From a virus: DNA of 55,590 nucleotides. Numbering within the stretch: the stretch's first letter is position 1; each line of letters opens with the position of its first letter. The stretch covers positions 1-55,590 of the IMG/VR virus record IMGVR_UViG_3300027114_000004; one strand, written 5' to 3'. The notes below the pieces were generated by a model that had not been told where the DNA came from, made no database searches, and saw only the letters and a program-made list of their open reading frames with translations. A program made the position numbers and the translations under genes. Positions 2,719 to 37,029 of the stretch are shown in pieces.

Positions 2719-2989
2719 CATCTACACCAGTAATCGTGAATCAATTGCTGTCGATCTGTCTGTGATGTCTGATGATGGTCGAGACTATCAAGGTCTGTTG
2801 ACCGTCTATCTTTCACGGTGCTATCGTAAGAGCGGTATGACGTGGGACGTATCTTTCGTCCGCTATAAGGATGGGACTGAACATCGGCATGAACCAACTC
2901 TGAAGATTGAATTCTTCGAGCAACTGTGGGTAGCCGCAATGTTTGAACCCGAACGTCTTCTTCAATACTATACGGAGGTCACCAAGTGA
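2705..2989 (+). CDS. Hypothetical protein (94 aa)
   Basis: The ATG at 2705 is preceded by GAGGAGTACAAC, so I use it over the in-frame ATG at 2690. The sequence suggests alternating strands (AYNIYTSNRES, LLTVYLSRCY, WDVSFVRYKDG) and a C-terminal helix. The stop overlaps the following GTG start. No motif gives a function. Confidence 0.55.
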   Translation: MKAYNIYTSNRESIAVDLSVMSDDGRDYQGLLTVYLSRCYRKSGMTWDVSFVRYKDGTEHRHEPTLKIEFFEQLWVAAMFEPERLLQYYTEVTK

Positions 2990-3231
2990 ATCACTATATC
3001 GGTCTGCTCTATGTCGAATCTAGTTTGGGAGATTTGAAGGATGCGTGTGAGGATCTAGGTATTATCCCACAGAATGTGGAGATTGAAGAGGGTGTGTGTT
3101 TCTTCGATGTCCATCTTCTCACTTCAGATAACTACGAAGATCCTGAAATGTACTTCGATTCTTTGGCACGTGACTTGTCCGAATACATGAACCGCGAAGT
3201 TGTCCTCGAAGATATCGAGGAGGAGAACTAA
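2986..3231 (+). CDS. Acidic hypothetical protein (81 aa)
   Basis: It starts with GTG at 2986 overlapping the preceding stop (GTGA), with GGAGG at 2974-2978 upstream. The protein is strongly acidic, especially its C-terminus (VVLEDIEEEN). A ferredoxin-like beta-alpha-beta pattern is possible (YIGLLYVES, CFFDVHLLT). The function is unknown. Confidence 0.55.
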   Translation: MNHYIGLLYVESSLGDLKDACEDLGIIPQNVEIEEGVCFFDVHLLTSDNYEDPEMYFDSLARDLSEYMNREVVLEDIEEEN

Positions 3232-3375
3232 ATGACCAACGAGAAGATTGATATTACATTGTTGCTCAAGCGTCTTGAAACTGATTACCCTCTCAACTAC
3301 AATGTGAATGTGTTGCGAGAAGCGGCACGGGTTATTCGAGAACTCCAACTGGAGAAGAAGAATGGACAACAATAA
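3232..3375 (+). CDS. Small helical hypothetical protein (47 aa)
   Basis: The ATG at 3232 directly follows the previous TAA and has GAGGAGAAC upstream. It encodes a short helical protein with LLLKRLETDYPLN and a basic tail (LQLEKKNGQQ). It overlaps the next start by 14 nt. The tight coupling on both sides makes it a likely real gene. Confidence 0.5.
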   Translation: MTNEKIDITLLLKRLETDYPLNYNVNVLREAARVIRELQLEKKNGQQ

Positions 3376-3499
3376 CTATGTATCGTTCGATGGTAAGTGG
3401 TGGAATGTCTTTGTTGCAGGGGAATGTATTGACGGGTTTCGAGAAGAGGATGATGCTCATCTCTTTCTTAGCCATGTGTTGAGGTATCAGAATGTATGA
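3362..3499 (+). CDS. Small hypothetical protein (45 aa)
   Basis: The ATG at 3362 sits within the end of the previous gene, with GGAGAAGAAG upstream. The product reads as two or three strands (YVSFDGKWWNVFVAG) and a helix. It overlaps the next start by 8 nt. No family is recognisable. Confidence 0.45.
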   Translation: MDNNNYVSFDGKWWNVFVAGECIDGFREEDDAHLFLSHVLRYQNV

Positions 3500-3584
3500 T
3501 CCAATTCCGTGGGGACAAATCGTTTTGATCTTTGTGATTATCGGTATCGGTATCTACTTCAGCAAGGATGATAACAATGGATAA
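3492..3584 (+). CDS. Tiny membrane peptide (30 aa)
   Basis: The ATG at 3492 overlaps the end of the preceding gene. The product has a single strongly hydrophobic helix (IVLIFVIIGIGIYF) followed by SKDDNNG, giving a predicted single-pass membrane peptide. Its end overlaps the next gene by 8 nt. It resembles the peptide at 929-1030 in design, not in sequence. Confidence 0.45.
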   Translation: MYDPIPWGQIVLIFVIIGIGIYFSKDDNNG

Positions 3585-3936
3585 AGATGTCAAGAAGCTT
3601 TGGATTGATGCGCTTCGTTCGGGCAAGTATCGGCAGGGAAAGTTTGCTCTGAACTATCAGGATCGCTTCTGCTGTCTCGGTGTGTTGTGTGATCTGTACG
3701 ATCAGCAACGATGTGGTGATACACTGTGGTACCACCACGACAACGGAGTGAAGGGTATTGGTGGAAGTCTTCACCATCTTCCTGTTCCAGTTCGTGAGTG
3801 GGCTGATATTGAATCGTATGATCCTCCCGTTATTTATGACGGTCGGACTATGGTTATCAGCGATCTGAATGACCATGAGAGACTTTCGTTTGAAGATCTT
3901 GCAAACATCATTGAACAACAAGGAGATCAGTTCTAA
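3577..3936 (+). CDS. CCLGVLC-motif phage protein (119 aa)
   Basis: The ATG at 3577 is preceded by AAGGATGATAAC; an ATG at 3568 is possible. The order is LWIDALRSGKYRQGK, then FCCLGVLCDLY near residue 32, then a VPVREWADI segment and a C-terminal LNDHERLSFEDLANIIE. This layout defines a small protein found across many phages and some bacteria, whose role is not established. It is in the early operon with TAATG coupling to the next gene. Confidence 0.7.
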   Translation: MDKDVKKLWIDALRSGKYRQGKFALNYQDRFCCLGVLCDLYDQQRCGDTLWYHHDNGVKGIGGSLHHLPVPVREWADIESYDPPVIYDGRTMVISDLNDHERLSFEDLANIIEQQGDQF

Positions 3937-4364
3937 TGTCTAAGTATGTTGATTCGTTCTTTACTGTTCTGAAACTCGACTATAATGGTGGCTGGGAATT
4001 GGTTGACTCTATCAAGGGTCTTATCAGCGATGAGATCAATGATCTCTCCATGAGTGTTGACGATATCAAGAAGGAACTTGAAGACTCTGTTAGTCAGGCT
4101 GTGTCTAAGGAAGTTAACGAGACAATCAATGACGCTGTGTATGACTTGCGTTGTAACCTTGAGTACACAATGACGCAGATGGTGAATGATTGTGTTGACT
4201 CGGTTGTGTGCCAGTCTGATACGCTTGAACGGGCTGCGGAAAGTGCGGTCGATGAGTACCTTGACAACAACCTCGACTTCTTTGTGCGACGTTACTTGGA
4301 GTCTGAGCGTGGTAAGCAATGGCTCAAGGATGTTCTCAAGGAAGGAGATGTTAATGTTCAATGA
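3936..4364 (+). CDS. Acidic helical hypothetical protein (142 aa)
   Basis: It starts at the ATG overlapping the previous stop, with AAGGAGATC upstream. The protein is mostly helical and acidic, with repeated D/E-rich segments (SVDDIKKELEDSVSQAV) that could form a coiled coil. No domain is recognised. Its 3' end contains AAGGAGATG, the ribosome site for the next gene. Confidence 0.6.
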   Translation: MSKYVDSFFTVLKLDYNGGWELVDSIKGLISDEINDLSMSVDDIKKELEDSVSQAVSKEVNETINDAVYDLRCNLEYTMTQMVNDCVDSVVCQSDTLERAAESAVDEYLDNNLDFFVRRYLESERGKQWLKDVLKEGDVNVQ

Positions 4365-4545
4365 CGAATTCGGAGAGTTTGTGAACGACGATACTGGTCG
4401 AGACGAATGGGATGGAGGAATGTGGGATATGTTTATTGACGAATATCATTGCACGGATTACTGGGTAGATACTGACGCATTGATGGACGAAGGTACCTTC
4501 GAAGATGACATTGAGGTGGAGGAAGAAGACGGTGATTGTGGATAA
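4354..4545 (+). CDS. Very acidic small protein upstream of RNA polymerase (63 aa)
   Basis: The ATG at 4354 lies 7 nt after AAGGAG. I count 25 D/E residues of 63 and only one arginine, for a net charge near -24. Aromatic residues are interspersed (DEWDGGMWDMFIDEYH). Small acidic phage proteins of this kind include DNA mimics such as T7 Ocr and host-RNA-polymerase inhibitors such as T7 gp2, but there is no sequence match here, so such a role is only an inference from composition and early position. Confidence 0.55.
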   Translation: MFNDEFGEFVNDDTGRDEWDGGMWDMFIDEYHCTDYWVDTDALMDEGTFEDDIEVEEEDGDCG

Positions 4546-4572
4546 CTTGTGAACCACCAGTCCCTGATTCCG

Positions 4573-4600
4573 TGCTAGGAATCCAACGGTTGGACTCCAA
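4573..4600 (+). promoter_or_regulatory. Hairpin in leader of the RNA polymerase gene
   Basis: The 83-nt gap before the polymerase gene contains GGA-a-TCCAA-cgg-TTGGA-c-TCC, an inverted repeat with one mismatch and a 3-nt loop. No T-run follows, so a terminator is unlikely. T7 has an RNase III site in the same place; a processing site or a translational control element is plausible. The rest of the gap is A-rich and ends in AGAAAGAACATAA before the ATG. Confidence 0.4.
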
Positions 4601-4628
4601 TAACTAAACCAAAACAGAAAGAACATAA

Positions 4629-7025
4629 ATGAACAATCTCTGTTATGGTAAGAAGTGGATAGCAGAAAAGAATAAGGAACATAAACTTAATCTTAATGCT
4701 GTCATAGAAGAAGCAATGGCTGATAAGTCTATCATGGATTACTGTAAGGAACGTAATAGAATCCTTGGAGTACCTGAAACAGATTTATGTTATGCTCTGG
4801 TAGACAAGACTGAACAAGCCATTGAGGAATATCTTAGCGAGTTATCTAAGAGAAACCTTTCTTGGATTACCCCGATCTACAAACTTGGATCTAGGACTGT
4901 CTCTGCTATCATTGTCTCTACGTATTTGGATTTTGTGTTTGTTGATGGCTCTCTTCCTAAGTTACAGTCAGTCATCAAACATATGCGTGTCAACCTTGAA
5001 CTCGCAAGTACATTCCATCAAGCACGTTCAGACCACTCGGGTGCGTGGGTTCTTGCTTCACGTTCTCTTGGAACAAAGTGGACGAAGCGTCAGATGCAAC
5101 AGTTTATGAAGACACATAGTGCATCTGTTGATTGCAGAATCCCAAAGAAGGATGGAGATACCTTGTGTCTTCATCTTATCGAGGTGTTAATCAAGGTAGG
5201 GTTGTGTGTTGAACGTCACTCTTACGACAGTAAGGGAAACAGAACAACGTGGTTGATGCCATCTGATTCTGTCACGGATAACTTGAATGCCGTGCATGAA
5301 GAACTTATGGCAATGGCAAAGATTATCTATGCCCCCATGATTGTTCCACCAGTACGTCACACAATCAACGAGTGTGGTGGTACACATTCACCACATCTCC
5401 GCAAGGGTATTGTGTCATCGTCGTATCTCTTCTTTCAAGACGATACGTATAAGACTAAGTATGTGGGATCAGAGCCATCGTCCAAGTGTGTCGAGGCTGC
5501 TAATCGTTTGATGTCTACCGAATGGTGTGTCAACGAGCGTGTGTTCGAGGTGATGAAGAATCTATTCGAGAACAACACTAGGGTTGGCAACCTTCCATCA
5601 TATGAACCCGATCCTAAATTGTTTTCTGATTCGGGAAACGAAGAAAGTATTCGGGTTAATCTCTGGAAGGATTGGTTCAGACGATTGAATGACACCGTGC
5701 GTATGCACCTTCGATTGAAGATTGCAAACGATATGATTGGTCATGGATATTTCTATCATGGTTGGACGTTCGACTTTCGTGGTCGAGCCTATGCCTTGTC
5801 TGATCTGTTGTCCCCACAATCGGGAGATCACGACAAGTCATTGCTGTTGTTTGCCAATCCCATGAAGCAAACACCTGACGGCTTGTATTGGTTGAAGGTA
5901 CAGGTTGCGAATCTGTTTGACCAAGACAAGTTACCATTCGCTGATCGTGTGGCATGGGTGGATAAGAACATGGATATGCTACGCTGTATCCATAACGATC
6001 CATACGGTACGGTTCGTTTGTGGGCAGACGATAAGCCAAAGAAGAATCAATCCTTCCAACGTCTTGCTGCTGTGTTCGAGTTGTTTCGTACTGATGGTAT
6101 GACACAACTTCCGATTGGTATGGATGGTTCATGTAATGGTATCCAACATTGGGCTGCTATTGCAAGAGATCCAGTCATCGGTGCTATGGTTAATCTGTTA
6201 CCATCAGATAAGCCAGGAGATGCTTACTCAGTTGTTGCCAAGTCTGTGACTGCTAGTGTTGCAGCGTGTGTTGGCAAGGATGATTGGGCAACGATCTTTA
6301 TGGAGTACTGGAAGGGATCTGTTGGTCGCGGTGTTGTGAAGCGAGCTGTTATGACAGATCCTTACGGTGTCACTAGGCGTGGCATTGTGGACGGTCTAGT
6401 GAATGATGGCAACCTGTTGTTCATCGACATCAAGGAACGACACAAGGCTGCTAACTATCTAGCCGACCACATCATCAAGGCTATGGATCATCTGTTGAAG
6501 ATTCCAAACCAAGGTAAGTTGTGGCTTAAGGAAGTCACGAAGATTGCTGCTGAAATGAACAAGCACCTTGCTTGGGTAACACCTACTGGGTTCCTTGTTC
6601 GTCACCGATACTATCCGATGATAAACAGATCGGTTGATATCTATACGTTGGTCAAGCGTCGGCAAGTTTTGTTCGCTGAGTTTGATCGCTATGCTGTTCA
6701 CCCGCGACGTGCAAAGAATGGTATCTCACCAAACGTCATCCACTCCTTCGATGCTGCACACATGGTCAACACCATCTGTGAGATGGCAGATGAGGGTATC
6801 GAAGACTTCTCGTTTATCCACGACTCGTATGGTTGCCATGCGCCACTGGTAAACAAGATGCGTGAGATTACCAAGCGCAAGTTTGTTGAACTCCACAGTG
6901 AGAATCTGCTAGCAAATCTTAAGGAGCAATTAGAAAAGTATCTTGGTGTTGAGTTGCCACCCGTTCCTGAAACGGGTACGCTTGACATCAACAAGGTATT
7001 AGAAAGTGAGTACTTCTTCCATTGA
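4629..7025 (+). CDS. Phage single-subunit DNA-directed RNA polymerase (T7 gp1-like)
   Basis: This enzyme would transcribe the phage middle and late genes from phage-specific promoters. The 798 residues are somewhat shorter than T7 RNA polymerase (883). The palm motif MDGSCNGIQHWAAIARDP places the first catalytic aspartate at D499, VKRAVMTDPYG gives the nucleotide-binding lysine K571 and tyrosine Y579, and IHDSYGCHAP gives the second aspartate D732. HSFDAAHM precedes it as in T7. The C-terminus ends YFFH, in place of the T7 FAFA. The gene marks the early/middle boundary. I could not derive its promoter sequence by eye. Confidence 0.97.
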   Translation: MNNLCYGKKWIAEKNKEHKLNLNAVIEEAMADKSIMDYCKERNRILGVPETDLCYALVDKTEQAIEEYLSELSKRNLSWITPIYKLGSRTVSAIIVSTYLDFVFVDGSLPKLQSVIKHMRVNLELASTFHQARSDHSGAWVLASRSLGTKWTKRQMQQFMKTHSASVDCRIPKKDGDTLCLHLIEVLIKVGLCVERHSYDSKGNRTTWLMPSDSVTDNLNAVHEELMAMAKIIYAPMIVPPVRHTINECGGTHSPHLRKGIVSSSYLFFQDDTYKTKYVGSEPSSKCVEAANRLMSTEWCVNERVFEVMKNLFENNTRVGNLPSYEPDPKLFSDSGNEESIRVNLWKDWFRRLNDTVRMHLRLKIANDMIGHGYFYHGWTFDFRGRAYALSDLLSPQSGDHDKSLLLFANPMKQTPDGLYWLKVQVANLFDQDKLPFADRVAWVDKNMDMLRCIHNDPYGTVRLWADDKPKKNQSFQRLAAVFELFRTDGMTQLPIGMDGSCNGIQHWAAIARDPVIGAMVNLLPSDKPGDAYSVVAKSVTASVAACVGKDDWATIFMEYWKGSVGRGVVKRAVMTDPYGVTRRGIVDGLVNDGNLLFIDIKERHKAANYLADHIIKAMDHLLKIPNQGKLWLKEVTKIAAEMNKHLAWVTPTGFLVRHRYYPMINRSVDIYTLVKRRQVLFAEFDRYAVHPRRAKNGISPNVIHSFDAAHMVNTICEMADEGIEDFSFIHDSYGCHAPLVNKMREITKRKFVELHSENLLANLKEQLEKYLGVELPPVPETGTLDINKVLESEYFFH

Positions 7026-10858: not shown

Positions 10859-11164
10859 ATGGATACTGATACTATGATTATGATTGGCGGTATGACGTTG
10901 ATTGTTGGCGGTATGTTCGCATCTTGGAAAATGCAGGATAAGGAGATCGCAAAACTTCGAAAAGAAGTCGATGAGAATTACGACTTGATGTACGAACTTA
11001 AGGCTGAAACAGAACACGGTCTTAACAACCGAATCAGCGCAGTTGTGCGTGAGGTATCGGCGTGGCAACACTCGCTTGCCGATATCAAGAAGGCAGAAGA
11101 CGAGAAGCGTCGTGTCGCTGAAACGAAGTCTGTTATTAAGAAGCTTAGGGATTCTATTAAATGA
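10859..11164 (+). CDS. Membrane-anchored coiled-coil protein (101 aa)
   Basis: The ATG at 10859 follows AAAGGAAACCT. Residues 6-22 are a hydrophobic helix (MIMIGGMTLIVGGMFAS), followed by a long charged helix with heptads (KEIAKLRKEVDENYDLMYEL) and a basic end. The topology, one N-terminal membrane helix plus coiled coil, resembles inner-membrane spanins, but the position amid DNA metabolism genes gives no support for a lysis role. The function is left open. Confidence 0.55.
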   Translation: MDTDTMIMIGGMTLIVGGMFASWKMQDKEIAKLRKEVDENYDLMYELKAETEHGLNNRISAVVREVSAWQHSLADIKKAEDEKRRVAETKSVIKKLRDSIK

Positions 11165-11406
11165 AAAACGTAGACGTTAATAACGAACCTGTAAGAAACG
11201 CTGATGAGTTCACTAAAACTATTACAGAACTTCAAGAGCGTATCAAAACGCTTACCGCCGAACGCGACGAAGCAAGGCGTGAAGTCTTGACGAACGAAGC
11301 AAATCATCTACCAACAATGTCTGATCCACATAGGGAAGCAAAGCGTCGTGGTTGGGATTGCCTTGAGCCTCGCCGTCCGTGGGACTCCCACAAGGATTAC
11401 AAGTGA
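11161..11406 (+). CDS. Coiled-coil hypothetical protein with GWDCL motif (81 aa)
   Basis: It starts at ATG 11161, overlapping the preceding stop (ATGA). Residues 14-45 form a predicted coiled coil (ELQERIKTLTAERDEARREV). The C-terminus carries AKRRGWDCLEPRRPW, close to AKQQGWDCF in the early gene at 1422-1760. The shared order, coiled coil then A-K-x-x-GWDC, suggests a small paralogous family of unknown role. Confidence 0.55.
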   Translation: MKNVDVNNEPVRNADEFTKTITELQERIKTLTAERDEARREVLTNEANHLPTMSDPHREAKRRGWDCLEPRRPWDSHKDYK

Positions 11407-11714
11407 ACTACGACAATGTGACAAACGACCCTTATCTTGATGAATACTACAAGATTCATAGAGGTTTTGGTCAACCTGAGATCATCGACAAGATGATCTA
11501 CGAACGCCACGATCAGCGCAACTGCTCTCCGCGCATTCAGGATAAGATTCTGAGTGCAGCATGGCAGATCAAGGAAGAATGGGTAAAGGAAGAAGTTCGT
11601 GAGTTCGTGTTGCGTATGTCGTGGCACATCCTGCACCTTGAGGAAACACTCAAGCGGAACAATATTTCCCACGAACCATACCGAAGTTACTACAACATGC
11701 CAAAGGAAGAGTAA
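11403..11714 (+). CDS. Hypothetical protein (103 aa)
   Basis: The GTG at 11403 overlaps the previous stop (GTGA) and is preferred to an upstream TTG. The product is helical and charged, with SAAWQIKEEWVKEEVREF and HILHLEETLKRN. No domain is recognised. It is part of a run of overlapping small genes between the tRNAs and the PEP-CTERM gene. Confidence 0.5.
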   Translation: MNYDNVTNDPYLDEYYKIHRGFGQPEIIDKMIYERHDQRNCSPRIQDKILSAAWQIKEEWVKEEVREFVLRMSWHILHLEETLKRNNISHEPYRSYYNMPKEE

Positions 11715-11723
11715 GGTACACAA

Positions 11724-12209
11724 GTGAAACCAATTCCAACAGAACCAAGTATTGTTGTCTTTAACGGTGGACCAAAGAATGGAACCACCGTGCCATACAA
11801 GGTTTCCATGTATCCAGAATACAAGGTGGCAGATAACCCATGCTATAGCATTGGAAACTACTACACAGACAGTGATCCACTTCCATTCGAAGATATCAAG
11901 TGGGTTCGGTATGAATTAAAGAAGGCAATGCGTCATATTTTCGAGCCGCGTAGGTACATGGAAATAAATCCAGAATACGCTAAAGATAAATATACTGTTA
12001 AGGTTTATCACCTAAAGCACTTTGACTTTGCTTATGTCTATCAACTAGAGGGAAGTAAAAGTGAACCCGTTGTTCCAGAAGATGCGTGGTTTGGTCGTGT
12101 AACTGACACAGAATTGATTGATTCATTTCAGACTAGTAATGACGATGCCTATCTTGCTTGGGTTTACGAGGAAGAAACAAGAAAGTTAATGGAGAATGGT
12201 AATGCCTAA
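11724..12209 (+). CDS. Hypothetical protein (161 aa)
   Basis: The start is GTG at 11724. The N-terminus reads IVVFNGGPKNGTTVPY, a 'GG-x-x-x-G' strand pair that I know from small phage and actinobacterial proteins of unknown function. The remainder includes KVYHLKHFDFAYVYQLEG and an acidic C-terminus. No catalytic motif is seen. Confidence 0.55.
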   Translation: MKPIPTEPSIVVFNGGPKNGTTVPYKVSMYPEYKVADNPCYSIGNYYTDSDPLPFEDIKWVRYELKKAMRHIFEPRRYMEINPEYAKDKYTVKVYHLKHFDFAYVYQLEGSKSEPVVPEDAWFGRVTDTELIDSFQTSNDDAYLAWVYEEETRKLMENGNA

Positions 12210-12444
12210 GACAGTACAATTTCCGCCAGATGAACCAAACGACTTTGGCTTCAGACCAACGGCTGCCATAGAAGTTACTTGGATACCTACACGAAACCGT
12301 TTAGAACTTAGTGGATACTACGATGGGTTCGTGCATATCCACGGTGCATCAATGACTCTCCGCGAGTTCTTCGATGCACTGGGGATTGACAAACGAACTT
12401 GTGACTTAGCTTTCAAGGAGAAAAAGACCAGTGGATTACCATGA
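12202..12444 (+). CDS. Hypothetical protein (80 aa)
   Basis: I use the ATG at 12202 because GGAG at 12191-12194 is correctly spaced for it and too close to the ATG at 12196. The protein appears strand-rich (AAIEVTWIPTRNRLELSGYY) with a C-terminal helix (LREFFDALGIDKRTC). No family is assigned. It overlaps its neighbours by 8 and 14 nt. Confidence 0.5.
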   Translation: MPKTVQFPPDEPNDFGFRPTAAIEVTWIPTRNRLELSGYYDGFVHIHGASMTLREFFDALGIDKRTCDLAFKEKKTSGLP

Positions 12445-12625
12445 TATTGAAGATATTGAAATTAAATTAGAGATTCTTCAGCAACGTATTTACAATGCCT
12501 CTATTCTCTTGGCTGATTGGGATGGTTACTATAATCCCAAGACTAGGAAAGGCAACGCAGAGGAACTTGCTAAGTTGATCGAAGAGGTATACATTGTATT
12601 ACAAGGTAAGAGTTGGCGTAATTAA
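12431..12625 (+). CDS. Small phage protein with DWDGYYN and LQGKSW motifs (64 aa)
   Basis: The GTG at 12431 starts a helical acidic protein with LADWDGYYNPKT near the middle and AKLIEEVYIVLQGKSWRN at the end. Small phage proteins with the ending 'LIEE-x-Y-x-x-LQGKSW' are familiar, though their role is unknown. It is the last gene before the PEP-CTERM cassette. Confidence 0.55.
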   Translation: MDYHDIEDIEIKLEILQQRIYNASILLADWDGYYNPKTRKGNAEELAKLIEEVYIVLQGKSWRN

Positions 12626-12630
12626 TTCTA

Positions 12631-12665
12631 AGGGAATGTGTAGTTCGTTCCCTAAAACTTTAGGG
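12631..12665 (+). promoter_or_regulatory. Leader with two mutually exclusive hairpins before the PEP-CTERM gene
   Basis: AGGGAA (631-636) can pair with TTCCCT (648-653), or the same CCCT arm within CCCTAAA (650-656) can pair with TTTAGGG (659-665). The two structures share bases, so only one can form. A ribosome site AGGAG follows at 12672-12676. No long T-run is present, so this is not a clear terminator; it may be an attenuator, processing site or promoter element. Confidence 0.45.
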
Positions 12666-12685
12666 ATACGTAGGAGAATTTTAGA

Positions 12686-13345
12686 ATGAAGAATGTGATC
12701 GGTTTGCTTGGTTTGGTTGTGGCTGGTTCAGCATCAGCAGAGTTCGTTGTTGTTAATAACCCAGTAGTAGAGACTGTTGGGTTCTACTCAGATGCCTTCT
12801 CATCGGGCGGTGCATACACCTATGCACAGAGTGGCGCACAGCTTTTTGATTTAGAGGATTCGTATACAACCTCATCCCTCAAGTGGTGGGGTTCATCCAA
12901 CGGATTCAATGATCAAGGCGTATCAAACTTTACCTCATTCGAGATTAATGTTTGGGATGCTGGCTTTAACGGTATCGTCTATACGACAACCGTTGATATG
13001 TCAAACGTAACGATCTCAAAGACAGGTGATTCAAACTTCTTTGGTCAACCCGTCTATGAGTTTTACGTTCCTTTTGTTGCTCAACTTACCGCTGGTAGTT
13101 ATGCAATGAATATTGGTGTTAATCTTGAGGACGCAAATGGAGATCAGTTTGTGTGGTCTCAGGGTATGGACTCAAACAACTTCTGGCAAACATCTCCGTT
13201 TGGTCCGGGTGGTTGGGGAACTTGGCGTCCATTACCACCATCTATTGGTAATACCGCTGGTGGTGCATTCGTTCTTTCAGCACCATCACCCGCAGCAATT
13301 GCGCTGCTTGGTTTAGCAGGACTTGTTGCTAAGCGTCGCCGCTAA
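12686..13345 (+). CDS. Secreted protein with PEP-CTERM-type sorting signal
   Basis: Residues 1-18 (MKNVIGLLGLVVAGSASA) are a typical Sec signal peptide with cleavage after ASA. The mature part is rich in G, S, N, W and aromatic residues and reads as a beta-sandwich (SLKWWGSSNGF, FTSFEINVWDAGF, YEFYVPFVAQL, GSYAMNIGVNL). The C-terminal 21 residues are AP-SP, then a small hydrophobic helix (AAIALLGLAGLVA), then KRRR, the three-part PEP-CTERM layout recognised by exosortases. The phage shows no exosortase, so sorting would need the host enzyme. Hairpins lie on both sides, which fits an acquired cassette. It could be surface-exposed or secreted and alter the infected cell. Confidence 0.85.
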   Translation: MKNVIGLLGLVVAGSASAEFVVVNNPVVETVGFYSDAFSSGGAYTYAQSGAQLFDLEDSYTTSSLKWWGSSNGFNDQGVSNFTSFEINVWDAGFNGIVYTTTVDMSNVTISKTGDSNFFGQPVYEFYVPFVAQLTAGSYAMNIGVNLEDANGDQFVWSQGMDSNNFWQTSPFGPGGWGTWRPLPPSIGNTAGGAFVLSAPSPAAIALLGLAGLVAKRRR

Positions 13346-13357
13346 GCAAACTAACAA

Positions 13358-13388
13358 AACCCCACAGGTCGCTTGGGCCTGTGGGGTT
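13358..13388 (+). terminator. Strong hairpin after the PEP-CTERM gene
   Basis: AACCCCACAGG (13358-13368) pairs perfectly with CCTGTGGGGTT (13378-13388), an 11-bp stem with a 9-nt loop. On the + strand only TT and then GGAGG follow, so plus-strand termination would be weak. On the - strand it runs into TTTTGTT. The GGAGGATAAATG that starts thyX is directly downstream, so the stem may also insulate that start. Confidence 0.55.
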
Positions 13389-13397
13389 GGAGGATAA

Positions 13398-14045
13398 ATG
13401 TTAACTTACGTAGATCATATGGGTTGTGATGAGTCTGTATGTGATGCTGCTCGCGTGAGCATGAACAAGACAGCTGATCTGTTTACCGTTACACAGAACG
13501 AGAGACTGATTAATTACTTGGCAAGACACAATCACTGGAGTCCCTTCTCGCATTGTGTCCTAAAGGTTCGTGTAACAGCACCAATCTTTATCGCACGTCA
13601 ACTGGCAAAGCATCAAGTTGGTTTCTCTTGGAATGAGGTATCACGTCGATACGTCTCAAGCGATCCAGAGTTTTGGATTCCAGACGAGTTTAGAGATAAG
13701 GCAGACAATGTAAAACAGGGTTCATCAAGTACCGTTAATGAGTACTCTCAAACCTACAAGACAAAGCTTGATAACCTGTGTAAGTATGCGGCTGAGATCT
13801 ATGGTGATATGTTAAAAGATAACATCTGCCCAGAACAAGCACGTGCCATTCTTCCACAAGCCATGATGACTGAATGGATCTGGACTGGATCGTTATATGC
13901 TTGGTCTCGTATGTACAATCTTCGCTCCGATTCACACTCTCAAGTTGAGGTTCGCAGTTATGCCGCTGCACTTGGTTCAATCTGTGACAATTACTTTCCA
14001 CTTTCATGGAGAGCGTTGACGAACTATGGCGTTCAATCTGAATGA
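13398..14045 (+). CDS. thyX: Flavin-dependent thymidylate synthase (ThyX)
   Basis: ThyX makes dTMP from dUMP with FAD, NADPH and methylene-tetrahydrofolate. The protein is 215 aa. The signature region is KHQVGFSWNEVSRRY near residues 74-88, the counterpart of RHRxxSxNExSxRY with Q in place of the second R. Upstream NHWSPFSHCVLKVRV and downstream LPQAMMTEWIWTGSLYAW and DSHSQVEVRSYA fit the dUMP-binding and C-terminal regions. It supplies dTMP together with the adjacent deaminase-like gene, Dut and RNR. The start follows GGAGGATAA. Confidence 0.93.
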   Translation: MLTYVDHMGCDESVCDAARVSMNKTADLFTVTQNERLINYLARHNHWSPFSHCVLKVRVTAPIFIARQLAKHQVGFSWNEVSRRYVSSDPEFWIPDEFRDKADNVKQGSSSTVNEYSQTYKTKLDNLCKYAAEIYGDMLKDNICPEQARAILPQAMMTEWIWTGSLYAWSRMYNLRSDSHSQVEVRSYAAALGSICDNYFPLSWRALTNYGVQSE

Positions 14046-14388
14046 TCTACTGAAACTCGCACGGTTGTTTCCACCAAAGGAACGAACACACTATTCGGTT
14101 GTGTTGCATGGTAATAAGATCATGGCCTGTGGCGAGGAGAATAGAAAGAAAACACACCCTAAGGCAAAGAAGCTGGGCTACAAGTATCCAACAATCCACT
14201 CAGAACTTGCTGCCTTCATGGCAATCGACAAGTCAATCGCAAAGGAGTGTACGTTGATAAACATGCGGATCACACCAACTGGTTCTGTTGGTATGTCTAA
14301 GCCCTGCCCATATTGTCTTGGGTGGGTGTCGGAGGTTTTTAAGGATGTCTGGTATACAAATCAGGATGGAGTTTTTGTGAGGCTATGA
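14026..14388 (+). CDS. Cytidine/dCMP deaminase-like zinc protein
   Basis: The protein (120 aa) has TIHSELAAFMAI near residue 64 and KPCPYCLGWVSEVF near 100, the HxE and PCxxC elements of the cytidine deaminase zinc site. The glutamate is the proton shuttle in this superfamily. Next to thyX, deamination of a cytosine nucleotide to feed dUMP is the natural role, but nucleic-acid or other substrates cannot be excluded. It overlaps thyX by 20 nt. Confidence 0.78.
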   Translation: MAFNLNDLLKLARLFPPKERTHYSVVLHGNKIMACGEENRKKTHPKAKKLGYKYPTIHSELAAFMAIDKSIAKECTLINMRITPTGSVGMSKPCPYCLGWVSEVFKDVWYTNQDGVFVRL

Positions 14389-14570
14389 AACGCGCAAACA
14401 TTAATGTAACTCTTCTAAAGGAACAGATCGAACTAATTGAGAGTGGTCTGCCATACAGTTTGCTTACCGACGAGGAAGCAATGATTGATGGTCTGTTAGA
14501 TTTTCTACACGATATTGCAACAGGCGAGATCGTGTGCTATAAGAAAGAACTAAATGGAAACCTTGAATGA
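14385..14570 (+). CDS. Small acidic helical protein (61 aa)
   Basis: It starts at an ATGA overlap with the deaminase-like gene and overlaps the primase-helicase start by 17 nt. The sequence is helical and acidic (DEEAMIDGLLDFLHDIATGE). No family can be assigned. Confidence 0.5.
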   Translation: MKRANINVTLLKEQIELIESGLPYSLLTDEEAMIDGLLDFLHDIATGEIVCYKKELNGNLE

Positions 14571-16287
14571 GTCAACTGTAGTTTCGAGAGATCGTTGTCC
14601 CAAGTGTGCCGCAATGGGCGGTGACAACAGCGGAGATAATCTTGCCGTCTATAGTGACGGTCACGTACACTGCTATTGCTGCGGATATCACAAAGGAAAC
14701 AAAATGTCAGCCGAACCTAGTACTTCTAACTTTAACAAACTGAATGGTACCTTCTCCGACCTTAGTCATCGACGTATTGAGGAGAAGACGTGTCGGCAAT
14801 TTGGTTATCAAGTTGCACACGTAAACAATAACGATGTCGAGATTGCCAACTACTTCTCAACAGAGGGTGAGTTGGTTGCTCAACATATCCGTGGACCCAA
14901 CAAGCAATTCGCTTGGAAGGGTTCACCCAAGAGTGTTCAACTCTTCGGTCAACACTTGTGGAAGATGTCAGGTAAGCGGTTGGTTATCACCGAAGGTGAA
15001 ATCGACTGCATGACTGTGTGTCAATTGCTTGGTGGTACTTGGCCTGTTGTATCTGTTCCTAACGGAGCGCAATCAGCAATCAAGGCCATCAAGGATAACC
15101 TTGAGTTCGTCTCTTCTTACCAAGAGGTTGTCCTTTGCTTTGACATGGATGACGCTGGTCAAGACGCGGCCAAGGCTATCAGTGAGATTCTTCCACCCGG
15201 TAAGTGTAAGATCGCTAAGCTTCCACTCAAGGATGCAAACGAATGCTTGGTCACAAACCAAGGCAAGGCTGTTGTGTCTGCGATCTGGGAAGCACAGGTC
15301 TATAGCCCCGATGAGATTCTTCACATCTCTAAGATTGTAGAGTCTACCGATAATCTTCAGGCTAGGGTTTACCCCTTCCCGTTTGACAAGTTGTCTGAGT
15401 TCCTCATCGGACAACGATCAGGAGAGATTACATTGTGGGCATCAGGTACGGGTTCTGGTAAGTCAACCATTCTCCGTGAGTTGATGTATCACCACCTTGA
15501 AGAAGGTCGATCTGTTGGTGCTATCATGCTTGAGGAATCCCCTCAAGAAACTATGGATGATATGATCTCGCTTATGATTAACAAGCCAGTTCGTGCCATC
15601 AATGCAGCGAAGATGATGAATGATCTTCGTGTCCGTATGGGTAAGCCACCAATCGACATTGAGTTGTTGACCAATGACTTCTCTACTGACGAATACTTGG
15701 AGGCTAAGAAGAAGCTATCTGCCACCAACATGTACATCTACGATCACCTTGGCAACAACGCTATGGCTAACTTGCTTGCTCGCATGGAATACATGGCTGT
15801 GTCACTCAAGGTAGACGTGATTGTCCTCGACCACATCACAGCAGCAGCGGCTGGGTTAATGGGAACATCCGACAAGGACATTGAGGGTGGTGGTTCGGAG
15901 CGTATCATTATCGACACGCTTATGAAGGAACTACGATCTCTCGCTGTTCGTACTGGTGTTCACGTCGATATTGTTTCGCAACTCAAGAAGACGGATAAGG
16001 CTTATGAAGAAGGCGATAGAATTACGCTTCAGGATCTTCGCGGTTCTGGTGCTTTGGCATCTGTACCTAATACGGTCATCGCTCTTGAACGCGATAGACA
16101 GAATCAAGACCAGACCCTAGCCAACACAACCATCATTCGTGTTCTTAAGAATCGCTTGACTGGTCGTGCTGGCATCGCTAGTGCTTTGTTCTACGACAGA
16201 ACAACTGGTCGTTTGCGAGAAGTTGATTGGGCAACCAACGATGAGGGAGAGGTTGTATTCCAACCCATTCAAAATGGAACAGCATGA
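14554..16287 (+). CDS. Bifunctional DNA primase-helicase (T7 gp4-like)
   Basis: The protein (577 aa) has an N-terminal zinc ribbon (C15, C18, C40, C43), a TOPRIM primase core ([11 protein letters not shown] and [10 protein letters not shown]) and a RecA-like hexameric helicase with Walker A GTGSGKST at residues 298-305, LDHITAAA as Walker B-like strand and the DIVSQLKK segment. It would lay primers and unwind the fork, acting with the polymerase and ssDNA-binding protein. An internal ATG at 14704 with its own ribosome site could give a shorter, zinc-free form, as in T7 gp4B. Confidence 0.95.
14693..14706 (+). promoter_or_regulatory. Internal ribosome site and start for short helicase form
   Basis: AAGGA at 14693-14697 lies 6 nt before an in-frame ATG at 14704, which is Met51 of the primase-helicase. 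Met51 comes seven residues after the last zinc-ligand cysteine, C43. T7 gene 4 uses an internal start (Met64) at the equivalent place to make the zinc-free 4B helicase. Confidence 0.55.
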
Positions 16288-16501
16288 AGTTATGCGAATG
16301 ATGGCTTGGGATATGTATGCCGCGTCGATCTTGGGTATGTCTTTACATCCCGGCACAACAAGGGATGCAGCTAAACCTAAAACCATAAAAGAGATTTGTA
16401 ACCTTGCCGACGAGATGTTGGCAGAAAGAGATACTAGATTTAATGCGCTTGGTTATCGACATCGAATCGAATGCCTTGATGGAGTTGACCCTCGACAATA
16501 A
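16274..16501 (+). CDS. Small hypothetical protein (75 aa)
   Basis: The ATG at 16274 overlaps the end of the primase-helicase gene, and the 3' end overlaps the polymerase start by 59 nt. The sequence is helical and Met-rich at its start ([15 protein letters not shown]), with [17 protein letters not shown]. It has no recognised domain. Its place between gp4- and gp5-like genes recalls T7 4.x genes. Confidence 0.45.
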
Positions 16502-18149
16502 GGGTAGACCTGTCAAGGAGTGTACAAAAGTTCACGTTGTTGTTACAAAGGATATTGATAGCGGAGAGGTTCGAACATGGACTGTGTTTGATGAGACCTT
16601 CGATGCGTATCTCAACAAGGCAACGCAACTCATTGGACACAATCTCTATGGTTTCGATCTTGAATGTCTTAAGCGTATGCTTGGGTACAAAGGTACTGCT
16701 AAGATCTACGACTCACTGGTTGTTAGTAAACTGATGTATCCAGATCTTACAAATCACCCGCTTGGTGGTAACTCGCTTGAGTGTTGGGGTAAGCACCTTG
16801 GTAATGAGAAGATCAACTATCAAGGTACATGGGAGGAGTTGACTGATGACATGATTACGTACTGCATTCAGGACGTACACGTTGCACATCACATCTACAA
16901 CCACCAACAGAAATGGATTGCGGATAACAAGTACGAGAAGATTGTTCAGCTTGAGTTTCTTGCTAGTGCTGTTGTTGCACAGCAGCAAGCCAATGGTTTC
17001 AATTTCGACATCAAGGCTGCTGAGAAACTACAACATGATCTGTTGATGTTCAAGGCATCTGTTGAAGATGAAATGCGTACCATCTTCCCAGACAAGGTTA
17101 CTGAGCGTTACTCAGAGAAGACGGGCAAGCGTCTCAAGGATTCCGTTGAGGCTTTTAATCCCGGCTCTCGCAAGCAGATTGCTGAGCGGTTGTATGAGAA
17201 GTATGGTTGGTCTGCACCGAAGACAGAGAATGGTAATCCAAACGTGGATGCCACAATCCTCAGTCAACTTGACTATCCAGAAGCCAAGAAGCTTGTCGAA
17301 TACTTCGATGTTCAGAAGCTTATGGGTCAGGTAGACGATTGGGTTAGCCGCTCATCGTATAGTCGAGACGGTCGCATCCACGGCTTTGTAAACGTACAGG
17401 GTGCTGCTACTGGTCGATGCACACACTCGCAACCAAACGTTGCACAGGTGTCTGGCGATCACCGTGCCAGAGAGTTATGGATTCCACACGATGGCGAGGT
17501 GTTACTTGGGTCAGACCTTAGTGGCCTTGAGTTGCGTATGCTTGCCCACTACATGGCACCATACGACAAGGGTGCGTATGCCGACGTTATTCTTAACGGA
17601 GACATTCACACCCACAACCAACAGAAGGCTGGTCTTCCCACCCGTAACAACGCCAAGACTTTTATCTACGGCTTCTTGTATGGGGCTGGCGATGCAAAGA
17701 TTGGTAAGATTATCGAAGGTTCATCTAAGCAGGGTGCAGCACTCAAGGAGAAGTTTCTTCGAGAGTTGCCAGCACTTGCTAAGGTCAAGCAAGATGTTGA
17801 GTTTCAGGTAGCCAAGCGTAGTGCGGTTAAGTTAGTTGACGGTCGCTATGCACCAGTACGTAGCGCACACGCTGCACTCAATACCTTATTGCAAGGTAGT
17901 GGTGCTGTAGTGTCTAAGTACTGGATGATCCTTGCTAACACCAGACTGAGGGAACGGTTTGGTGCCAACGTTGTCAAGCAACTAGCGTATGTGCATGACG
18001 AACTTCAGTTCTCATGCCCATCAGCGATTGCTGAAGAGGCTGGCAAGATAGTTACTAATGCGGCAATCGAAGCAGGTACTAGACTTGCTATCGCTATGCC
18101 AATCAACGCGGAGTATAAAATTGGAAACAACTGGTCACAAACTCACTAA
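16443..18149 (+). CDS. Family A DNA polymerase (T7 gp5-like)
   Basis: I use the ATG at 16443, since the exonuclease motif VIDIESNAL begins at residue 4 as in T7 gp5; no strong ribosome site is seen. Exo II and III are [10 protein letters not shown] and [13 protein letters not shown]. Polymerase motif A is [12 protein letters not shown] (D358), motif [17 protein letters not shown] and motif C YVHDELQF (D519). At 568 aa it is well short of T7 gp5 (704). The segment between [11 protein letters not shown] and FNPGSRKQI is about 20 residues where T7 has about 100, so the thioredoxin-binding loop appears absent. It replicates the genome with the gp4- and gp2.5-like proteins. Confidence 0.96.
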
Positions 18150-18639
18150 AGCATCTGTCGGCTTCTACGACTTCAGTAAGATTCAGGGTAGGTATTTTGG
18201 ATTGTTGGCTAAGATTCTTAACGGTAGCCATGTAACACACGCTGGCCTCATCCTTGAGGCTGGCGGCAAGGAGTACCACTTTGTAATCTGTAGCGCAAAA
18301 CAAGAATGGGATGGTCGTATAGTACCAGTCAGTAAACTATACAATCTAGAAACCTTACAAGGGTTGGGTGCTGTCCTCATCGGTCGAACAGAAATGTGGA
18401 TCACTGAGGATATGTCACTTGGGGATGCTATAACGGGGGCATCGTCATATACCGACAGTAATGCTTGGGATATGATTTTCCATTACTTTGTTGGGCGGTT
18501 CATTGGTTTAACAAGACCACGGAATTGCACAACACATATCTGTTCTTTCTTTAATATCGAAGACTGCTTTACACCAGCAGAGTTGTTTAGGAGATTCAAT
18601 GATAACAATCTTATTGTCCGGCCAAGCGAGAGTCGGTAA
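18121..18639 (+). CDS. Putative permuted papain-fold (NlpC/P60-like) protein
   Basis: The frame's best start is TTG at 18121, 9 nt after GGAG; an upstream start would lie deep inside the polymerase gene. The 172-residue product has SHVTHAGLILEAG near residue 37 and NCTTHICSFFN near residue 142. A histidine strand followed later by a cysteine helix matches the circularly permuted papain-like fold, used by some peptidases, amidases and acyltransferases. The family call is tentative. Because no standard endolysin is seen elsewhere, a cell-wall role is one option. Confidence 0.5.
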   Translation: METTGHKLTKASVGFYDFSKIQGRYFGLLAKILNGSHVTHAGLILEAGGKEYHFVICSAKQEWDGRIVPVSKLYNLETLQGLGAVLIGRTEMWITEDMSLGDAITGASSYTDSNAWDMIFHYFVGRFIGLTRPRNCTTHICSFFNIEDCFTPAELFRRFNDNNLIVRPSESR

Positions 18640-19303
18640 GACTACAGCTGCTGAGTTTATTGCAGCGTATGCAAAGAAGTGTGACTTCAAACCAATCATC
18701 CTCCCCTTCGCTAAGGCTATTAAGGATGAGGCATTAGCTGCCGGATTTGACAAGGCAACTAAGCCACTAGAGTATCGTGCCTATTGTCAAGACGTTGGTG
18801 AGTCCAAGCGCAAGGAAGATCCAGATTACTGGTTGAACTTGTTTAAGAAGGCTTGGAAAGAAGCCGCAATCAAGGATGCAAACGCAGCACAAGACGAAGA
18901 AAAGCTTTGGAAAGAAACCGTAATCATCGTTGACGATTGTCGGTACCTTAATGAACTTAACTTCGGTCGAACGAACGGAGCCATCACTGTCTTCATCAGC
19001 CGTGGTTCAAGAGACCTAGAAGATCAGAATGCTGATTGGCGTAAGCATGAATCAGAAGAGATGGCAAACCGATTCGAGTCTGGCGATAAGGATTACGTTC
19101 AGATGTTTGATTGGGTTATCAAGAACGAAGGAGACACCAAGCTTCTTCACTCCAAGTTAAGCGCACGTCTTCCTGATTGGTTGGGTCTTGATCCACACTG
19201 CTATCTGTCTTGTGATTGCCTTGGTTGTACAAAGACCAAGAAGGATGAGCCTATGAATCTTGATGAGTTCTTTGAAGAGTTGTTTGGAGACGAAGAAGAA
19301 TGA
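18599..19303 (+). CDS. Deoxynucleoside monophosphate kinase-like P-loop protein
   Basis: The ATG at 18599 follows TAGGAGATTCA. The 234-residue protein has a P-loop GQARVGKTT at residues 8-16 and IIVDDCRYLNEL near residue 120, the D-R-x-x-NE element of phage dNMP kinases such as T4 gp1. These enzymes phosphorylate dNMPs to dNDPs for DNA synthesis. The C-terminal 40 residues add a cysteine cluster (CYLSCDCLGC) and an acidic tail, an extra element that may bind metal. Its neighbours are replication genes. Confidence 0.8.
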   Translation: MITILLSGQARVGKTTAAEFIAAYAKKCDFKPIILPFAKAIKDEALAAGFDKATKPLEYRAYCQDVGESKRKEDPDYWLNLFKKAWKEAAIKDANAAQDEEKLWKETVIIVDDCRYLNELNFGRTNGAITVFISRGSRDLEDQNADWRKHESEEMANRFESGDKDYVQMFDWVIKNEGDTKLLHSKLSARLPDWLGLDPHCYLSCDCLGCTKTKKDEPMNLDEFFEELFGDEEE

Positions 19304-19656
19304 GTCTTGATACCGTTGCAATGATTGGATATGAACATGGAGAGTTTAGGGAGGCACCGGAGGATTGGTTCTCTGGTACTGATCTTCTTGTTCGTGGAAC
19401 AAAGGGAACAGATAACTGGATTCGTGGTCGATACTATGATGAGGTTATTAAGCAGACCACTGGTTATACATTGTATCACCAACTTAAGAACGGTACCGTC
19501 AGAGACATCTCACGTCTTTTGAATGAGTACACCTTTGCCCACATCTCCAGTGTAGCAAACAGACGTGTACAAATATCTAACGAAGAGCTGCAACAATTAA
19601 ACAAATGGTTTAAGATAGCAGCTGAGAAAGGTTGTTTCCTTGAAGCTTGGTATTGA
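19300..19656 (+). CDS. MGLDTYAY-type hypothetical protein, paralogue B (118 aa)
   Basis: It begins at an ATGA overlap with the kinase gene. MSLDTVAMIG, RGRYYDEVIKQTTGYTLYHQ and LNKWFKIAAEKGCFLEAWY align in order with the gene at 8096-8482. Sequence identity is limited to those blocks. The function is unknown. Confidence 0.62.
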   Translation: MSLDTVAMIGYEHGEFREAPEDWFSGTDLLVRGTKGTDNWIRGRYYDEVIKQTTGYTLYHQLKNGTVRDISRLLNEYTFAHISSVANRRVQISNEELQQLNKWFKIAAEKGCFLEAWY

Positions 19657-20365
19657 TCGTGCAATCTTAGATGGCGACATCATTGCGTATCGTGCTGCCT
19701 TCTGGGCAGACCAAGAGGGAGCTGAATGGTTAGATAGACGATTGATGGATGACGTTAAACGGTGGACACCACCGGGAATAACTGATATCACAATTGCTAT
19801 CTCCTGTTCACGTAAGGATAACATCCGAAAGGATTACCTCCCTAGTTACAAAGAACACAGAGACGGCAGACCATCACCAGATTGTCTATCCGACGCTATT
19901 GCTTTCTTACGGGATAACTATGAGACAGCAAGCGAACCTAGACTTGAGGCTGATGACCTAATGGGTATTGCTAAGTCTGGGTTTAAAGCAATTTGTGTAA
20001 CCATCGACAAAGATTTACAACAAGTTCCCGGCTATTCGTGGAAGCCACGGCTGAACTTGGATGACCAAGAGGCTGAGATAGAATATACCTCAGTTTCTGA
20101 CGCAGACTTTTGGTTTCATCGACAATGGATCACAGGAGATTCGACCGATAATATCGGGGGTATCTGGAAGCTTGGCCCCAAGAAGGCTGAGAAGCTTCTG
20201 AATTCCACCCACCCCAAGAACCATACCGCCCTAGTCCTGAGCCTCTACGAGACCCGTAGCGACAAGGATGGCAAGCCGTATACCCTTGAGGATGCTGTAG
20301 CAATGGGACGCTGTGTCCGCATTCTACGGGATGGGGAAAATACCCCATGGCACCCATACGAGTAG
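19640..20365 (+). CDS. 5'-3' exonuclease (T7 gp6-like, FEN family)
   Basis: The start is TTG at 19640, 8 nt after AAAGG; no ATG lies nearby. The 241-residue protein has ILDGDIIAYRAAF at the N-terminus, YLPSYKEHRDGRPSP, EPRLEADDLMGI, VTIDKDLQQVPG and GDSTDNIGGIWKLGPKKAEKLL (the metal ligands and helix-hairpin-helix of the flap nuclease family). It removes primers, processes DNA ends and probably digests host DNA. It lies after the polymerase as gene 6 does in T7. Confidence 0.92.
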   Translation: MKLGIDRAILDGDIIAYRAAFWADQEGAEWLDRRLMDDVKRWTPPGITDITIAISCSRKDNIRKDYLPSYKEHRDGRPSPDCLSDAIAFLRDNYETASEPRLEADDLMGIAKSGFKAICVTIDKDLQQVPGYSWKPRLNLDDQEAEIEYTSVSDADFWFHRQWITGDSTDNIGGIWKLGPKKAEKLLNSTHPKNHTALVLSLYETRSDKDGKPYTLEDAVAMGRCVRILRDGENTPWHPYE

Positions 20366-36174: not shown

Positions 36175-36443
36175 CAGTCGAGCAGTTATTAGCCGTCATT
36201 ACGGCAGTTGTTATTCCTATTTCGGTTTCGACCTATTGGATCGCAAACCGTCTATCATCTCTAGAGACTGCACTTAAAATGCAAAAAGAAGTGACAGACC
36301 TAGAGCAAAGACAAGTTCTCTACCGTGTTGATAAACTAGAAAAACACGTCCATGAAATTAGAAACGTCTTACAAGCACTCACTTTTAAGTTAATGAGGGG
36401 AGATACATTGGATGACGATTTTAAGACTCCTACTGGTTTGTAG
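36162..36443 (+). CDS. Membrane-anchored coiled-coil protein, holin- or spanin-like (93 aa)
   Basis: Residues 8-30 are a transmembrane helix (LLAVITAVVIPISVSTYWI), followed by a charged coiled coil (DLEQRQVLYRVDKLEKHVHEI). It overlaps the fibre gene before it by 13 nt and the lipoprotein gene after it by 32 nt. Position after the fibre equals T7 gene 17.5 (holin). An N-terminal helix plus coiled coil could also serve as an inner-membrane spanin. Which role is right cannot be told from the sequence. Confidence 0.55.
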   Translation: MSGLTVEQLLAVITAVVIPISVSTYWIANRLSSLETALKMQKEVTDLEQRQVLYRVDKLEKHVHEIRNVLQALTFKLMRGDTLDDDFKTPTGL

Positions 36444-37029
36444 CTTTCTTTTTGGTTGTTCTTCGGTAAAGAAGATCCAAGAGGGTTCGAATACTATTAA
36501 CACAGCATCAACGACAACAACCAAGGCTTTGGAAGAAATTAAAGAAGCTGCTATTGTTGCCGATCATAGTTTAGAGGTTATCTATGAGAACGTCAAAGAA
36601 ATCCCAGCGGCAGAAGAAATCAAACAACACGTCGCAATCGCCTCAGAAGCCCAACAAACGATCATCGAAAGATCCGATCAAGGGCTTTTGGAACAGGCCA
36701 CGATCTCTTCGACAGTTAAAGAAATCATCGAGGCAACCTCGTCGGTGAAAGATGCAGAACCGTGGTGGGCTGTACTATTGCAGTACGCCTCAGTTGCGGT
36801 TATTAGCTTGGCTGTTGTAATTATCTTATGGCAGACAGGCGTTGGTTTAGTTATTCGACGGCTTATTGGATTTATTCCCACAGCCAAGAAGGAAGAAGCA
36901 AAGATACTAGATGAGGCTTTGTCCTCAGAGTCCGAAACAACTATCCGCGAAGCTGTCGCAATGCTTAGGGCTAAAGACCCAGAGCTAAACGAAGCTTTTA
37001 AACGGAGAAAGAAACGTGCCAAACTATAA
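36412..37029 (+). CDS. Lipoprotein with C-terminal-side membrane helix, u-spanin-like (205 aa)
   Basis: The N-terminus has a hydrophobic leader (LRLLLVCSFLFGC) with a lipobox at residues 13-16 and Cys16 as the lipid site. Residues 30-112 are helical and charged, and residues 119-148 form a transmembrane helix (WAVLLQYASVAVISLAVVII), followed by a 57-residue basic and acidic tail. A lipid anchor plus a later membrane helix is the u-spanin layout, which links outer and inner membranes in T1 gp11. The tail after the helix is longer than expected. It is overlapped by the preceding membrane gene. Confidence 0.6.
   Translation: MTILRLLLVCSFLFGCSSVKKIQEGSNTINTASTTTTKALEEIKEAAIVADHSLEVIYENVKEIPAAEEIKQHVAIASEAQQTIIERSDQGLLEQATISSTVKEIIEATSSVKDAEPWWAVLLQYASVAVISLAVVIILWQTGVGLVIRRLIGFIPTAKKEEAKILDEALSSESETTIREAVAMLRAKDPELNEAFKRRKKRAKL

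Follow-up and report, generated by a model that had tools for sequence, protein, structure and literature searches.

The window is a stretch of viral DNA of 55,590 nucleotides. It derives from a lake-type, T7-like bacteriophage that encodes a single-subunit RNA polymerase, a primase/helicase, PolA, a ribonucleotide reductase and head, tail and terminase genes. Its terminase is ~39% identical to cyanopodovirus terminases and 38% identical to that of a Limnohabitans phage. Relatives measure 61-69 kb, so the window is probably an incomplete genome. An open reading frame on the + strand (12686-13345, ATG at 12686) encodes a 219-residue protein that begins with MKNVIGLLGLVVAGSASA, continues with EF after the predicted signal peptide and ends with LSAPSPAAIALLGLAGLVAKRRR at the stop codon. 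The elements of this locus and two genes outside it are listed in Table 1. After thyX, positions 14026-14388 encode a 120-residue protein with a CPYC motif that is deaminase-like by eye. Far downstream, a small TM/coiled-coil protein (36162-36443) is followed by the u-spanin-like gene as a candidate lysis pair, with kin at L025:6816-7639.

Table 1. Positions of the cassette, its internal elements and two outside genes in the window.
Feature	Position	Strand	Basis or remark
Entire accessory cassette, 770 bp	12627..13396	+	Empty site in 96%-identical phage L177
Leader; two short hairpins that exclude each other	12628..12665	+	Sequence, RNAfold
Ribosome binding site AGGAG	12672..12676	+	Direct reading
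Sec-type signal peptide, 18 residues	12686..12739	+	Sequence, hydropathy; cleavage between ASA and E predicted by eye
Mature domain, ~180 residues	12740..13279	+	Conserved WWGSxNGFxxQG and GDQFVWSQG; beta-sandwich-like model
PEP-CTERM-type tail: A-P-S-P, short hydrophobic helix, KRRR	13280..13342	+	Alignment, TIGR02595 family scores, tail profile
11-bp perfect hairpin	13358..13388 (arms 13358-13368 / 13378-13388)	+	Region fold -27 kcal/mol; terminator-like, no T run here
thyX	13398..14045	+	TIGR02170 3.6e-40, phrog_85; downstream flank, outside cassette
u-spanin-like protein	36412..37029	+	Lipobox LFGC, coiled region, C-terminal TM; read from translation; outside cassette

A first-pass annotation made from the sequence alone had described a reading frame with a signal peptide and a C-terminal sorting tail at this position, and all three were found on reading the sequence. 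Inspection and hydropathy place a hydrophobic core and a small-residue cut site at the N terminus of the window protein and its relatives, and the small residue preceding the cut is conserved across the family. The mature part is acidic, with a computed pI of 4.05 and 16 Asp+Glu versus 3 Lys+Arg, and contains 7 Trp and no Cys. The protein has no TM segment other than the C-terminal helix. Structure prediction of the mature part, which the first-pass annotation had proposed as a check, did yield a beta-sandwich (mean pLDDT 73). A fold and sequence search of the PDB and a fold search of BFVD returned generic jelly-roll matches only, with TM-scores of at most 0.4, so any binding or masking by the modelled domain is inference only, without demonstration. 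An alternative model led by L081 was of lower quality and was set aside.

The 770-bp segment is a true accessory cassette. Phage L177 has ~96% DNA identity around the site and a primase that is 99% identical, and it lacks the cassette gene. It aligns with window positions 12192-12626 and 13397-20000 with only 10 bp between them, directly before the thyX start. This empty site, which is without exactly the 770 bp, substantiates the earlier proposal of an added accessory gene. The thyX slot is in view in 49 type-A relatives and contains the gene in 7 and not in 42, one of which, L196, has the gene elsewhere on the contig, as locus L164. In type-C T7-like phages the gene lies between terS and terL in 15/67 and is absent in 52/67. 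Among these 52, L261 and L264 hold another gene in the slot, and in the remainder terS and terL nearly abut. The L261 and L264 slot encodes a different protein of ~327 residues that starts with MFINTGNFEYRDYHVSPDGNDE and is beta-helix-like by eye. L177 is also without window positions 11161-12191, a further ~1 kb beside the cassette, and the region therefore gains and loses genes. An orphan 44-residue frame at a contig end (L096:42-176) ends with GAIALLGMAGMISRRRR and is perhaps a relic of the gene. Misassembled host DNA is ruled out by phage-gene flanks in dozens of independent contigs and by the empty sites.

The cassette had also been described as bracketed by hairpins. The perfect pairing of the 11-bp hairpin was confirmed, and this hairpin is strong. 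With the exception of type C, most other contexts also have C-rich terminator-like hairpins 3' of the gene, frequently with a T run, as would suit a self-contained transcription unit. The leader can form the two alternative pairings that had been suggested (12628-12636 with 12648-12656, or 12650-12656 with 12659-12665), but these are not conserved beyond near-identical relatives. No conserved leader switch is shown because only the closest, near-identical relatives L001-L005 share this leader and L002 has a damaged second hairpin, and a regulatory switch is not supported.

PEP-CTERM signals are defined by a near-invariant Pro-Glu-Pro motif, a TM helix and a basic cluster at the end of exported proteins without other TM segments (Haft et al. 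2006, PMC1569441). The window family meets every element of this definition except the Glu. The motif is Pro-[Ser/Ala/Thr]-Pro in all members, with both Pro invariant and the Glu never present, and residues A199, P200, P202, L207, G212 and R217-219 are invariant in 24 aligned members. The three-part layout claimed by the first-pass annotation is thus present in altered form, as P-[SAT]-P and never Pro-Glu-Pro. The curated cut-offs are 16 bits for TIGR02595 (PEP_CTERM) and 20.7 bits for PF07589. The window copy scores 12.8 bits against TIGR02595 (E 0.023 for the whole contig) and stays sub-threshold, and family members L015 (16.0 bits) and L046 (16.6 bits) reach the cut-off, so the model search that had been proposed passes in these two relatives and not in the window copy. 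PF07589 gave weak matches only. Every copy that reaches the C terminus retains the tail, its two P-x-P prolines and at least three terminal Arg; this holds also for the distant members L081 (48% identity with the window protein), L084 and L164. Homologues without the tail or the signal peptide, which would have refuted the assignment, were looked for, and all that could be checked retain both. A virion transmembrane anchor, the other refutation foreseen, is disfavoured because a signal peptide is present, because conservation of the tail extends to its residues and not merely to hydrophobicity, and because it is common to an unrelated exported protein.

That unrelated protein was found with a tail-only profile (A2), which identified a second, different exported protein on 4 contigs that also bear the first family and none in the window. 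The second family comprises 16 viral loci, and its protein begins with MKTLIATAFI, ends with VVPAPSALALLAVAGIVGRRRR or similar and also passes the TIGR02595 cut-off. Its C-terminal part (L105, L107) resembles the PEP_CTERM_QFxxD subfamily NF038120 (E 1e-5), with a score of ~25 bits versus a cut-off of 80; the window protein has no match to this model. A profile built from the tails of the second family alone recovers the first family (best relative 3.6e-8; window E 0.0059 in ~14,000 frames), and none of 2000 shuffled versions of the window tail equalled its score against this profile. Because an unrelated family's tail profile finds the window tail and 0/2000 shuffles reach its score, the resemblance is judged on these sequence statistics not to be due to chance. 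The cross-detection and the shuffle test are the strongest evidence for the tail as a modular, recognised signal, a reading inferred because a second family with a different mature domain bears this tail too and is encoded alongside the first on four contigs.

Members of the second family (L105:4688-5317 on the - strand, also L106, L107, L108 and L109-L124) have a mature part that is distantly NF038120-like, and in type-B phages the genes often lie 5' of the UvsX/DnaB/DnaG module. L133:3304-3849 and L134:4254-4640 have PEP-CTERM-like ends (VPAPSVLLAVGLGFAILSRKGTRR; IPAPASLFLLAMLVVGRMKRKSRYE) without a clear signal peptide.

A scan of viral contigs found 51 loci of the first family, and a broader alignment extended this to 55 (about 55 IMG/VR contigs). 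The first 51 comprise 46 intact reading frames, 3 that run off the contig end and 2 that are frame-broken yet have the tail present downstream. A tblastn search of isolate phages and plasmids gave no family match, with one plasmid match at chance level. Pattern searches of GTDB genomes with the mature domain and with a strict tail DNA pattern, which may be too narrow, found none. No cellular donor is therefore identified, and a host counterpart sharing the beta domain, which the first-pass annotation had hoped for, was not found in the GTDB genomes searched. The gene also occurs in type-B phages (UvsX, DnaB, DnaG, thyX, RNR, RuvC). Larger contigs (102-168 kb) carry it too; these may be type-B kin because some genes are in common. 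Three phage groups that differ clearly from one another have the gene, in five or more insertion contexts. Phage type is not followed in the protein tree: monophyly of type A is rejected (AU p=0.012), and B and D members join the window clade with support of 100/99. The dN/dS values are ~0.1-0.2 for most related pairs, from which the gene is inferred to be under purifying selection. The multiple contexts, the AU test and the dN/dS values together indicate, at the level of sequence comparison, that phages exchange the gene and that selection maintains its function.

No exosortase (PF09721) was found in the window and 26 related contigs (27 in total, many partial), a search for which control genomes were positive, and the first-pass statement that the window encodes none holds. 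Without a phage exosortase the host's must therefore serve; a matching host exosortase is not shown. Dockerin domains score above the Pfam cut-off in 8/30 contigs searched and cohesin in one, and a planctomycete host is inferred because related phages encode these dockerin and cohesin proteins. Dockerin-like repeats and tails of this style are typical of Phycisphaerae planctomycetes. A domain search of the window detected no dockerin or cohesin, and the window protein has neither. Freshwater CL500-3 planctomycetes (Nemodlikiaceae) are reported to have cohesin/dockerin modules (PMC6461901).

Several exported dockerin proteins were seen near the family. Proteins with a C-terminal dockerin pair lie directly 3' of the PEP-CTERM-type gene at L030:8998-9759, L021:8707-9564, L046:8965-9759 and L013:4194-4988. 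L195, whose primase is 74% identical to that of the window phage, encodes two dockerin proteins (2960-3814 and 4045-4740) before thyX, the first of which is C-type lectin-like by eye with no Pfam lectin match. A phage subtilase (PF00082, E 8.8e-38) at L085:11174-12088 on the - strand ends in dockerin-like repeats.

The data demonstrate that the gene is intact, is under purifying selection, encodes both an export signal and a PEP-CTERM-type tail, and lies on a 770-bp unit that is inserted and exchanged among phages. The likely interpretation is that the cassette is mobile phage cargo for a host-sorted surface protein, with receptor masking as its most likely use. During infection, Sec would export the 219-residue protein, signal peptidase would cleave between ASA and E, and the C-terminal helix and Arg cluster would retain it in the inner membrane. 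The host exosortase would recognise the P-[SAT]-P region, and the ~180-residue beta-domain would be released or transferred to the outer surface or matrix, where it may bind a host surface glycan or receptor and mask it. Such masking would guard the infected cell against superinfection and the progeny against sticking to debris. Sorting by the host exosortase is well supported and unproven, with cleavage and location inferred; the sub-threshold score of the window copy and the missing near-invariant Glu count against it. Receptor masking as the end function is only a tentative suggestion that rests on inference alone. The type-C copies lie with late genes, between terS and terL, and this timing fits early superinfection exclusion less well.

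The main rival leaves sorting unchanged and alters the end role, so that the protein would mimic a component of the host matrix or a surface complex and change aggregation or particle attachment rather than block a receptor. The dockerin and cohesin proteins of related contigs, several of which adjoin the gene, and the modules reported for CL500-3 planctomycetes are consistent with such a role and recall the freshwater planctomycete cohesin/dockerin complexes termed 'planctosome' (PMC6461901), but the window phage and its protein have no such domain. Matrix alteration remains possible without being probable, and masking of a surface receptor or glycan is favoured. A broader and speculative extension is that freshwater planctomycete phages share an exchangeable surface kit of two PEP-CTERM-type families, cohesin/dockerin proteins and a subtilase, and that in infection this kit remodels the envelope surface by means of the host's exosortase and cohesin-dockerin assembly.

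It is doubtful that the tail belongs to another sorting class such as MYXO-CTERM or is an unspecific membrane anchor with a convergent likeness to PEP-CTERM. Room for this reading is left by the missing Glu and by 14/24 members that score weakly against several CTERM models, MYXO-CTERM among them. A Cys is typical of the MYXO-CTERM family. No Cys of that type is present, both Pro are invariant, and two members and the second family pass TIGR02595. An envelope-spanning, u-spanin-like lysis protein with the tail as a mere anchor is unlikely. N-terminal export, a beta-domain and a C-terminal TM with a basic end do give a topology similar to a u-spanin, and the type-C slot between terS and terL is where T7 has its Rz gene, but the 219-residue protein has no lipobox and no Cys after the signal, the window (36412-37029) and type-C phages (L025 7079-7639) encode a separate lipobox and C-TM protein, most relatives including L177 dispense with the gene at these slots and so do not need it for lysis, and the sequence of the tail is itself conserved and recurs on an unrelated protein.

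Sorting by the host's exosortase remains the preferred reading. The window family resembles the PEP-CTERM/exosortase (EpsH) system (TIGR02595 / PF07589; PMC1569441) in its signal peptide, its motif, helix and basic cluster without other TM segments, its use of one tail on unrelated proteins and a mature part without a Pfam match. It differs from this bacterial system in its location on phages, its P-[SAT]-P motif, the lack of an accompanying exosortase and the sub-threshold window copy. The search of open literature (subscription literature was outside its scope) found no report of phage-encoded PEP-CTERM proteins.

Llp of phage T5 is a phage-encoded surface-modifying lipoprotein that follows the lipoprotein export route. 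The window protein is likewise phage-encoded, exported and expected at the host surface, and differs in the proposed host exosortase route and in masking that is only inferred; if it masks a receptor, its role would be comparable to that of Llp. The phages probably redecorate the host surface with the host's own sorting machinery, and proteins put on display via a host sorting enzyme would then be an additional class of phage cargo. The PEP-CTERM/exosortase sorting system is widespread among bacteria, and its purpose is little understood so far. Repeated acquisition, exchange and conservation of its substrates by phages would show a role for the sorted surface in infection, and such phage-borne substrates would offer a ready probe of exosortase function.
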